A stretch of DNA of 64,000 nt from Streptomyces sp. PCS3-D2 (GTDB lineage: Bacteria; Actinomycetota; Actinomycetes; Streptomycetales; Streptomycetaceae), in assembly GCF_000612545.2 (NCBI RefSeq), contig NZ_CP097800.1, positions 4,588,501-4,652,500 of the forward strand. Direction: 5' to 3'. Of this stretch, positions 52,244 through 53,796 are shown in pieces; within the stretch, counting starts at the first letter, position 1, and the number at the start of each line of letters is the position of its first letter. The position numbers and the translations under genes were made by a program. Below the pieces are notes generated by a model. The model was not told the origin of the DNA. It searched no databases and was given only the letters and a program-made list of their open reading frames with translations.

Positions 52244-52347
52244 CTGTCAGCCGAAGGCTGTCATGCGAGGGGTGGTGGTCGGGCGGCGGGTGGGACTGTC
52301 AGCCGAAGGCTGTCATGCGAGGGGTGGTGGTCGGGCGGCGGGTGGGG
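52244..52347. repeat. 52-bp tandem duplication immediately upstream of fbiA
   Basis: Bases 52244-52295 and 52296-52347 are identical except at the last position. Each unit contains a small hairpin, CAGCC-GAA-GGCTG. The repeat sits between the cysteine dioxygenase stop (52367) and the fbiA start, so in the fbiA direction each copy of the hairpin could act as a weak terminator for the upstream gene or as part of the fbiA leader. The near-identity of the copies indicates a recent duplication. Confidence 0.92.
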
Positions 52348-52366: not shown

Positions 52367-52903
52367 TCAGGCGGGGACGGACTCGGACGCGGACGCGGCC
52401 GGGGAGCAGTTGTGCATCGGCATCTGGGTGAGCCCGGGGAAGTAGACGTGCAGGCTGACCGCGCCTTCGAGGGTGTCGTTGACGACCTCGTGGGTGTAGC
52501 CGGGGGCGAAGACGCGCTGGCCGCCGGCGCGGTGGGTGAGCCGTCCGCGGGAGGTGTGTTCGGTGAGCTCGCCCTCCAGGACCGTCAGGACGCCGGAGGA
52601 GGCGCCGTGGTCGTGCAGGCCGCTTCCCTGGCCGGGGACCCAGCTGAGCAGCCAGACCTCGTAGCCGGGGCCGGTGCGCAGCCGGTGGTACCAGCGGGTG
52701 GTGGCGTCGTACTGGACGAGGTGCTGCCAGGAGGCGCGGTCCTCGGCGATGGAGCGGGCCAGACCGACGAACTCGGCGACGGTGGCCGGATGTTCGCGGG
52801 CCGGCTGGAGGAGGTGCTGGACGGCGAGGATGTCGCCGGCGATCTGCAGGTCGCTTTCGACGGTCGCGGGGGCGGCGGTCGTGCTGGTGGTGGTGCTGTT
52901 CAT
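52367..52903 (-). CDS. Cysteine dioxygenase
   Basis: This 178-residue cupin oxidises cysteine to cysteine sulfinate with O2 and one Fe(II). The iron ligands appear as H97 and H99 in GLHDHGASSGVLTVLEGEL and H138 in APGYTHEVVND, the arrangement of the type I bacterial enzyme. The Cys of the mammalian Cys-Tyr crosslink is Gly in this family, as in other bacteria. GAGG lies 9-10 nt upstream of the ATG at 52903. Upstream on the same strand is a 28-codon leader ending in six Cys codons, so expression is probably tuned by cysteine supply. The product leads towards taurine or sulfite. Confidence 0.92.
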   Translation of the reverse strand: MNSTTTSTTAAPATVESDLQIAGDILAVQHLLQPAREHPATVAEFVGLARSIAEDRASWQHLVQYDATTRWYHRLRTGPGYEVWLLSWVPGQGSGLHDHGASSGVLTVLEGELTEHTSRGRLTHRAGGQRVFAPGYTHEVVNDTLEGAVSLHVYFPGLTQMPMHNCSPAASASESVPA

Positions 52904-52990
52904 CGGGGTGTACCTCGACGGATGTCAGTTGTGCTGGCGGTCGCTGTGGGGGGAGGGCCGGAGCTCTGGGGAGCCGGGGCTCCACGGGCA
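52904..52990 (-). promoter_or_regulatory. Leader-to-cysteine-dioxygenase intercistronic region with competing hairpins
   Basis: These 87 nt, read on the minus strand, follow the leader peptide stop directly. GGAGC early in the segment (in GTGGAGCCCCGG) can pair with the GCTCC immediately after it (GGAGC-CCCG-GCTCC) or with the second GCTCC in CAGAGCTCCGG, so two mutually exclusive hairpins are possible. A C-rich run (CCCTCCCCCC) could also pair with the GAGG ribosome site. A ribosome stalled on the Cys codons or released at the stop would favour different folds. The structures are drawn by eye. Confidence 0.5.
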
Positions 52991-53077
52991 TCAACAGCAG
53001 CAACAGCAACAGCGAACCTGGGCAGCGCACAGGAACCCACGAATGGGGGTCCGGGTGGTGGCTGCGGGCGCTGACAT
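52991..53077 (-). CDS. Polycysteine leader peptide (28 aa) upstream of cysteine dioxygenase
   Basis: The frame starts at ATG 53077-53075, begins MSAPAATTRT, has one Cys at residue 17, and ends with six consecutive Cys codons (residues 23-28, alternating TGT and TGC, bases 52994-53011) followed at once by TGA (52991-52993). No Shine-Dalgarno sequence precedes the ATG; instead a promoter-like pair places the likely transcription start at the ATG, so the message would be leaderless. This is the design of amino-acid attenuation leaders, and leaderless polycysteine ORFs acting as cysteine-responsive attenuators have been described in mycobacteria. Here the regulated gene would be cysteine dioxygenase, 87 nt downstream. 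The peptide itself is presumably disposable. Confidence 0.85.
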   Translation of the reverse strand: MSAPAATTRTPIRGFLCAAQVRCCCCCC

Positions 53078-53084
53078 GCGAATA

Positions 53085-53114
53085 AGGAGAACGGGTGAGG
53101 GGTCCGGCTGTCAA
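53085..53114 (-). promoter_or_regulatory. Promoter for the polycysteine leader / cysteine dioxygenase transcript
   Basis: On the minus strand a perfect -35 TTGACA (53114-53109) is followed after 18 nt by TCTCCT (53090-53085), a weak -10 match with T at the first and last positions. Seven nt separate this hexamer from the A of the leader ATG (53077), the spacing expected when transcription starts at the start codon. The -35 is strong evidence; the -10 is only suggestive. Confidence 0.6.
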
Positions 53115-53532
53115 CTCAATGTCCGGTTTGGGGGAAAAGTTTCACCTCATCCGGTTGTCGCGCATGGAGAAAGGTTTGTGCAGTCTGCGGCGGGGCATAC
53201 GGCGCTGCATCGGAAGTCAAACCTGATCCGGCCATGTCGTGACCTGAATGTGATCTACGCCGCTCTTCGGGATGCGCCGCAACCTCGTGTCGGGGTGGCG
53301 CGTGCATTACGGGTGAAGGTGACATCTGATGGCGCCGATGGCATGTGTCACGATTTTTGGCGATATGAACACTTTCTGCATAGGCTTGGTTCCGCAGAGT
53401 GAATAAGGGGCCCGATAGCAGATCCCGGCTTGACTGCCCCGGAGCCACGCACTTGTAATTTCACTCGTGTCGTTACGTAGCTATGAGTGACGACGTGACC
53501 ACGGGGACGCACCAACAGAGCGAGGGGCGCAC
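53115..53532. other. Long AT-richer upstream region of whiB
   Basis: These 418 bases hold no supported gene and are distinctly less GC-rich than their surroundings, typical of a regulated promoter region. An inverted GTGACA/TGTCAC pair (53319-53324 and 53346-53351) flanks a GGCGCC palindrome. whiB in Streptomyces is transcribed from separate vegetative and developmental promoters; I could not place either with confidence. Confidence 0.5.
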
Positions 53533-53796
53533 ATGACCGAGCTGTTTCAGGAACTGCTGGTCGAGGAAGCGGACGAGGAGCTCGGATGGCAGGAGCGCGC
53601 CCTGTGCGCCCAGACCGACCCCGAATCCTTCTTTCCCGAGAAGGGCGGCTCCACCCGCGAGGCCAAGAAGGTCTGCCTCGCCTGTGAGGTCCGCTCCGAA
53701 TGCCTTGAGTACGCCCTCGCCAACGACGAGCGATTCGGTATCTGGGGCGGCCTGTCCGAGCGCGAGCGCCGCCGCCTGAAAAAGGCGGCCGTCTGA
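53533..53796 (+). CDS. whiB: WhiB iron-sulfur transcriptional regulator
   Basis: This 87-residue protein has the four cluster-binding cysteines C25, C48, C51 and C57, the GIWGG turn (69-73) and the basic C-terminal helix ERERRRLKKAAV. Length and sequence match WhiB of Streptomyces, which works with WhiA to start sporulation septation in aerial hyphae and carries a 4Fe-4S cluster; it corresponds to WhiB2 of mycobacteria. The long AT-richer upstream region and the strong terminator at 53906-53944 indicate a monocistronic unit. Confidence 0.96.
   Translation: MTELFQELLVEEADEELGWQERALCAQTDPESFFPEKGGSTREAKKVCLACEVRSECLEYALANDERFGIWGGLSERERRRLKKAAV

Follow-up and report, generated by a model that had tools for sequence, protein, structure and literature searches.

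A cysteine-codon upstream ORF before the Streptomyces cysteine dioxygenase gene, best read as a leaderless cysteine-sensing ribosome attenuator

Attenuators built on a run of codons for one amino acid are textbook devices for making that amino acid. Leaderless polycysteine short ORF (sORF) attenuators of mycobacteria are reportedly the subject of Canestrari et al. 2020 (Mol Microbiol). Leaderless polycysteine upstream ORFs (uORFs) are known in mycobacteria, according to the cited passages of PMC9031893, PMC9094748, and PMC13236596. When a codon-run sensor is found before an enzyme that destroys the amino acid, one may ask whether, and by what means, such a part could work the other way round. 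This question is raised by a locus in Streptomyces sp. PCS3-D2. In the window (the whole stretch of 64,000 nucleotides analysed here, contig NZ_CP097800.1, positions 4,588,501 to 4,652,500), a 28-codon uORF, 52991-53077(-), encodes MSAPAATTRTPIRGFLCAAQVRCCCCCC and is closed by the six Cys codons TGT TGC TGT TGC TGC TGT and then TGA. From this stop to the ATG of the gene encoding cysteine dioxygenase (CDO) is a distance of 87 nt (Table 1).

The downstream protein (52367-52903(-)) matched Pfam CDO_I at 70.8 bits (cut-off 23) and was also matched to solved cysteine dioxygenases (best E 1.7e-9); it was without an NCBIfam match. A CofD-like gene lies downstream of CDO, and a divergent WhiB-like gene lies upstream. 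Between CDO and the cofD-like gene, two tandem copies of a ~52-nt unit ending TGACAGCCTTCGGCTGACAG were noticed by eye at 52244-52347(-); the unit perhaps resembles a duplicated hairpin, possibly a terminator. The arrangement described in the first-pass annotation, a minus-strand frame of 28 codons with six Cys codons and TGA 87 nt before CDO, was confirmed by translation and by the CDO_I match. That annotation had also judged such a Cys run extremely unlikely by chance. When the whole genome was searched for four Cys codons followed by TAA or TGA (TGY x4 + TRA), a single occurrence was found, namely the window uORF, and the reversed control of the pattern gave 0, in agreement with that view.

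Table 1. Features of the CDO leader region, in window coordinates.
Feature	Position	Strand	Basis
TTGACA, predicted -35 box for the uORF, 37 nt ahead of its ATG	53109..53114	-	spacing in relatives
Weak -10-like hexamer, TCTCCT, lacking A at position 2 and 7 nt ahead of the ATG	53085..53090	-	columns kept in an ATG-anchored alignment of 41 promoters
uORF, 28 codons, MSAPAATTRTPIRGFLCAAQVRCCCCCC then stop	52991..53077	-	translation and conservation across relatives
Six Cys codons of the uORF	52994..53011	-	translation; TGY x4 + TRA unique in genome
5' arm of proposed stem P1, GCUG UU GA u GC (end of last Cys codons, TGA, 3 nt beyond)	52988..52998	-	motifs in three Streptomyces groups
Additional hairpin within the P1 loop, GGAGC-CCCG-GCUCC, in the window's own Streptomyces group	52970..52983	-	by eye, MS alignment
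Proposed 3' arm of P1, GCTCCGGC	52957..52964	-	motif GCTCCnGC
Spacer of 74 nt, rich in C (37) and poor in G (17), where Rho might load	52917..52990	-	composition
GAGG, Shine-Dalgarno-like sequence of CDO	52913..52916	-	sequence
Cysteine dioxygenase (CDO), 178 aa	52367..52903	-	Pfam CDO_I; solved cysteine dioxygenases

Conservation was assessed by an anchored rule that called for at least three Cys in the last 12 residues and a uORF start 35-38 nt after TTGAC. Under this rule, a Cys-rich uORF was found before CDO at 151/155 Streptomycetaceae loci, compared with 0/155 on the antisense strand and 0/775 among dinucleotide shuffles; when the promoter anchor was removed, the Cys rule was satisfied by 152/155 sense, 1/155 antisense, and 23/775 shuffled sequences. 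Three samples contributed. The window together with the best 80 of 492 Streptomyces loci, obtained from a scan with the CDO protein, gave 81/81. Streptomyces loci from an even genome draw of the class, used to lessen best-hit bias, gave 26/27. A likewise even draw of the family, in which CDO was present at E<=1e-40 in 140/150 genomes, supplied 10 Streptomyces loci and 37 loci of other genera, picked partly by score and partly for spread, and gave 44/47. The loci that failed the rule were L107, L227, L231 (607 bases, at the end of a contig), and L238. L107, from Streptomyces, has TTGACA upstream of CDO, but no start 34-40 nt after it and no uORF, and is perhaps a natural leader deletion; the uORFs of L056, L097, L103, L105, and L109 look eroded. 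Three second CDO copies of Streptomyces carried no short ORF with CC near the stop. Among the Streptomyces sampled, the uORF is nearly genus-wide, and the conservation of the Cys run in related strains, set against the antisense and shuffled controls, is upheld.

Two features were kept among these leaders: the spacing between promoter and start, and a Cys cluster at the stop. As the first-pass annotation had anticipated, the cluster persists while the remaining peptide changes: the N-termini vary (MSAP, MPAT, MLAN, MPAEHH, MSEF, etc.), the peptides are 26-49 residues long, some contain LRRAASALC, and the last residue is C, S, R, I, or L. Six consecutive Cys, as described there, are present in the window but prove to be one variant, as relatives usually end in a Cys cluster with Ser or Arg inside (e.g., CCCCSC or CSCCCCSSC). 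C, S, and R account for 1088/1296 of the last nine residues, and as many as seven Cys occur in the last 12. The first Cys codon of the cluster lies 5-12 codons before the stop, which is TGA in 129/144 leaders and TAG in 15/144. The distance from uORF to CDO, likewise expected to be kept, held among near relatives (most members of the window's own group have about 82-96 nt) but ranged from 65 to 302 nt over 144 loci. Codon choice within the uORFs was strongly skewed, with TGT making up 531/754 Cys codons versus 9/106 in 36 ORFs of the window that were taken as genes by base composition; moreover, the last Cys codon was TGT in 132/144 leaders. TGT, rarer in these control genes, would suit slow decoding; in the last position it is also part of the proposed stem P1, described below.

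The position of the uORF start relative to its promoter was the other constant. An in-frame ATG was found 36 or 37 nt after TTGAC in 81/81 loci (35-39 allowed), and because of this spacing the promoter geometry predicts a leaderless transcript beginning at the uORF ATG, with a weak -10 element. In 144 loci the distance from TTGAC to the start was 35-37 nt (35-38 allowed). A sigma-70 scan that required A at position 2 of the -10 element found no promoter. Despite a perfect -35 TTGACA, the conserved -10 region reads TCTCCT, TCACCT, or TGTCCT and not TAnnnT. The promoter may require an unusual factor or an activator.

The uORF is very probably Cys-responsive and acts in cis, and the most fitting reading of the arrangement is a ribosome-based attenuator before CDO that senses cysteine through a leaderless uORF, for which we infer leaderless translation, stalling, termination, and a direction of response. 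As the first cistron of the CDO transcript, the uORF would be translated from leaderless mRNA, and its Cys cluster would let the leading ribosome measure the supply of Cys-tRNA(Cys). With Cys-tRNA in good supply, this ribosome would reach the stop close behind RNA polymerase and cover the RNA around the stop codon, and CDO would be transcribed. When Cys-tRNA is scarce, the ribosome would halt at the first Cys codons, uncoupled from RNA polymerase; a stem at the stop codon (P1 in Streptomyces) could form, and the C-rich, G-poor spacer would lie bare. The bare spacer would lead to an early end of transcription, most likely by Rho, and no CDO would be made. That CDO is turned on when Cys-tRNA is plentiful, via a transcription termination step, has in our judgment not quite an even chance of being correct; this direction, also put forward as one option in the first-pass annotation, is preferred mainly because of the catabolic role of CDO and the geometry of the ribosome and P1.

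To judge by its motifs, a stem (P1) probably forms over the last Cys codon and the stop codon in Streptomyces. These motifs, (C A/G) GCUG UU GA(n)GC with GCUC C(A/G)GC(U/C) beyond the stop, are common to three Streptomyces groups, and GCTCCnGC was found no more than 75 nt from the stop in 93/116 Streptomyces loci, with 5 occurrences in 7127 nt of remaining spacers. Pairs were counted in the ML group only, where 98.1% of cells were paired across 31 distinct chosen sequences. Both-sided changes amounted to 7 cells compared with a shuffle mean of 1.8 (0/500 shuffles reached 7), all of them in one base pair (six A-U to G-C, one U-A), and consistent one-sided changes were present in three other pairs of the ML group. 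RNAalifold, when run unaided, picked out P1 for group ML but for neither MP nor MS, and in the minimum-energy fold of the window leader the Cys run pairs with other spacer RNA, not as P1. Computation lends P1 partial support. Outside Streptomyces, folding models are suggestive of a stop-codon stem. Over the whole set of leaders, those of Streptomyces included, pairing of the stop region with downstream RNA was above the shuffle mean in 117/144, with p<0.1 in 12 only, and a local stem around the stop in family f4 (see below) had a mean z of -1.19, with p<0.05 in 6/19. When RNAalifold was applied to the whole leader, no clean consensus emerged, and the window RNA folded only somewhat better than shuffles (z -2.08 for the whole leader, -0.70 for the spacer). 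Rfam gave no match in the window at gathering thresholds. A different pairing, between the Cys run GTTGCTGT and an ACAGC(A/G)AC further downstream, was seen in the predicted fold of the near relative L010 and similarly in that of the window; it was rejected as a general switch, the partner not being kept in other Streptomyces groups.

The geometry of a ribosome on these leaders was then set against P1, with an assumed footprint reaching P-site +15. A ribosome at the first Cys codon would end at or before stop-5, where the 5' arm of P1 begins, in 140/144 leaders, 28 of the 144 being from genera without an established P1, whereas one at a later Cys of the cluster would cover the arm. For the six-Cys run of the window, the ribosome edge would fall at stop-6, just short of the P1 arm. 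With regard to the spacer, C exceeded G in 144/144 leaders (mean C 0.48, G 0.24), compared with 24/36 in a rough control made of the upstream regions of window genes (C 0.36, G 0.33). The genome encodes Rho (661 bits), and C-rich, G-poor RNA after the uORF and Rho, both expected of a Rho-dependent uORF attenuator, are present together. It has been reported that ribosome stalling on messages with Rho sites leads to early termination, and that stalling at polyproline combined with rut sites lowers translation about 30-fold, an effect reversed by a Rho inhibitor (PMC5021804, in the passages cited). Six other leaders of the cis_reg_atten type in the genus are likewise followed by C-rich spacers, so that the direction of the response cannot be read from the spacer.

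Two other outputs were tried and rejected. For an intrinsic terminator of the trp type, the uORF is indeed rich in the relevant (Cys) codons; 0 terminator-like sites were found in 52850-53600, with 0.4 expected in shuffles. No U-tract follows P1: the T fraction in the 12 nt after P1 was 0.11 in MS, 0.30 in MP, and 0.24 in ML, versus 0.09, 0.20, and 0.20 further on, a slight excess in one group only. For sequestration of the CDO Shine-Dalgarno (SD) site in Streptomycetaceae, 144 leaders were folded with the ribosome absent, at the first Cys, at the last Cys, or at the stop. In this purely thermodynamic model, the energy needed to open the SD site differed by 0.03 kcal/mol between ribosomes at the first Cys and at the stop, compared with 0.08 for shuffled spacers.

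The device had been proposed as a possible switch of Streptomyces, but similar uORFs precede CDO in other actinobacterial families as well. Among 101 further CDO loci (98 outside Streptomycetaceae and the 3 second Streptomyces copies), short ORFs with CC near the stop numbered 26 in sense and 3 in antisense. In family f4, of which 19 loci were examined out of 21 genomes with a CDO match, 18/19 had a uORF with Cys-Cys near the stop, mostly ending ECCR, GCCR, or alike, and the nineteenth (L191) had a single Cys. Family f4 is probably Mycobacteriaceae, since PPE genes were present in 8/8 f4 genomes tested. In genus g37 of family f19, the five-residue leader MRCCC, followed directly by a stop, preceded CDO in 5/8 loci, the others having MQSCR and a stop (L126) or a leader of the RRHIDL type (L150, with L192 beginning like it); in f26 g39, an ending ..RCCRCC before the stop was found in 1/6 loci (L122). 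The CC-near-stop ORFs of L147 and L170 were taken as chance. Inspected by eye, the promoters of these other families likewise suggest leaderless transcripts. For the MRCCC genus, a CTCCGG directly behind the uORF stop is, by eye, the complement of CCGGAG at the SD site of CDO in the 4/5 MRCCC loci that show this site; the match spans 7 nt in L131 and L140 and 6 nt in L128 and L193. The spacer could hide the SD site in that genus, which points to translational control there, and because of this stretch different families may have different outputs. In L200 and L204 (f4 g31), three segments, GTCGAGGC at the uORF end, GCCTCGAC, and TTCGAGGC, were seen by eye to be able to pair 1:2 or 2:3, which by eye is the classical alternative-hairpin layout.

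When placed among known systems, the CDO leader is closest to the mycobacterial polycysteine sORFs, a likeness in design that the first-pass annotation had pointed out. It shares with them a short ORF that is leaderless (here by prediction), adjacent Cys codons, the position of first cistron, and presumably ribosome speed as the sensor; like them, it is a conserved Cys-cluster ORF before a gene of cysteine metabolism, CDO, at 151 of the 155 loci. It differs from them in its catabolic target, as those mycobacterial sORFs that have been described control genes of cysteine biosynthesis by way of the ribosome-binding site (PMC13236596, in the passage cited). Masking of that site was not supported for the CDO leader, which has a C-rich spacer of 65-302 nt, and in the thermodynamic model of the 144 Streptomycetaceae leaders a ribosome on the Cys codons did not open a structure hiding it. 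An earlier survey by Seliverstov et al. 2005 predicted cys leaders in Mycobacterium and P. acnes, where they precede cys operons, and in B. longum, where the gene is cbs. As in the CDO leader, the Cys runs lie close to the stop, a conserved terminator hairpin is lacking, and Rho is suggested (PMC1262725, in the part of the text cited). Two Streptomyces genomes were included in that survey; the word "dioxygenase" is absent from its text, and in the part cited no CDO leader is reported (PMC1262725). A reannotation of S. lividans lists, in the portion cited, eight leader peptides, none of them Cys-dependent (PMC8079986). The uORFC-8-2 motif before cysS in Rhodobacterales likewise has a uORF with two adjacent Cys codons but differs in its intrinsic terminator with a U-run, its cysteinyl-tRNA synthetase gene, and its occurrence in alpha-proteobacteria (PMC8632094, passage cited). 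With orf34 of Salmonella speF, the CDO leader shares a uORF with tandem cognate codons and, in the reading proposed here, a Rho step and the importance of the stop-codon position; orf34 differs in that it senses arginine, precedes another enzyme, is favoured when Arg is absent, and is subject to multi-level control with RNase G (PMC6386406, passage cited).

The NCBIfam collection, including NF042934, did not match the window peptide or 11 relatives at E up to 10. NF042934 (cis_reg_atten) and NF042936 (Ms4527A) resemble the CDO leader of L150, MQASALVLVMRRHIDLKRTCTAICR, which is outside Streptomycetaceae; it scored 23.8 and 36.7 bits against them, below the respective cut-offs of 27 and 45. Four matches to NF042934 above cut-off were found in the window's own genome. 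In that genome, L260, L261, and L262 are other cis_reg_atten-type leaders before three genes, which we presume, from the starts of their proteins, to encode a flavin reductase, a sulfite reductase, and a thiosulfate sulfurtransferase.

The strongest rival to the preferred direction is the classical one, in which a ribosome held up at the Cys codons prevents an inhibitory structure from closing and CDO is made when Cys-tRNA is scarce. This is possible but doubtful. It is the described logic of the closest known system, the mycobacterial polycysteine uORFs (PMC13236596 and PMC9031893, in the passages cited), and known Cys leaders and speF, being on when the amino acid is scarce, respond in the way opposite to the one we prefer. 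The six other cis_reg_atten-type leaders also have C-rich spacers, and in the MRCCC genus the CDO SD site could, by eye, be freed by a ribosome occupying the last Cys codons. On the other hand, CDO destroys cysteine, so that a shortage would be made worse, and in the 144 Streptomycetaceae leaders the SD opening energy was no different for a ribosome at the first Cys and at the stop. We hold, tentatively, to an inverted amino-acid attenuator: a Cys-codon uORF of the sort that switches on cysteine supply genes during shortage would here turn on a cysteine-destroying enzyme in times of plenty, and the ribosome, by covering the region of the stop codon, would keep Rho off.

The remaining explanations concern what the ribosome, the peptide, or the DNA itself might be doing. 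In the tna operon, TnaC stands before a catabolic gene as a uORF followed by a Rho-loading region, and its action depends on conserved peptide residues; arrest peptides in general require particular residues in the exit tunnel. The CDO leader is like TnaC in its catabolic target, its uORF with the Cys cluster beside the stop, and the C-rich spacer that follows, and high free cysteine might stall the finished peptide at its own stop, shield the spacer from Rho, and so turn CDO on. Unlike in TnaC, however, the peptide varies outside the cluster, even in its last residue, which makes such an arrest unlikely. It is very improbable that the peptide itself is the product, a small Cys-rich molecule acting in trans, e.g., by binding metal or thiols: its Cys content would fit such a role, but Cys spacing and length are not fixed (the MRCCC version has five residues only), the TGT bias is strong, the uORF is linked to CDO, and 12 family peptides were without an NCBIfam match. 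Least credible of all is a simple trinucleotide repeat, or a DNA or operator site, read as an ORF by chance. The TGT/TGC runs are repetitive, and the divergent whiB-like gene shares the intergenic region; however, the cluster is in frame, with a start fixed from TTGAC, and lies directly before the stop in the 151 loci, a pattern that neither control reproduced, while lengths differ by whole codons and the stop is either TGA or TAG.

With regard to what is new, no described CDO leader was present among the literature matches listed, and novelty in print is not certain. As far as the literature was searched, the sensor is known, the target gene and the peptide family are new, and the direction of response is probably new as well. 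The analysis adds leader peptides that NCBIfam and Rfam, as searched, do not contain. If the preferred reading is true, cysteine supply and cysteine breakdown in actinobacteria would come under one sensor, the ribosome.
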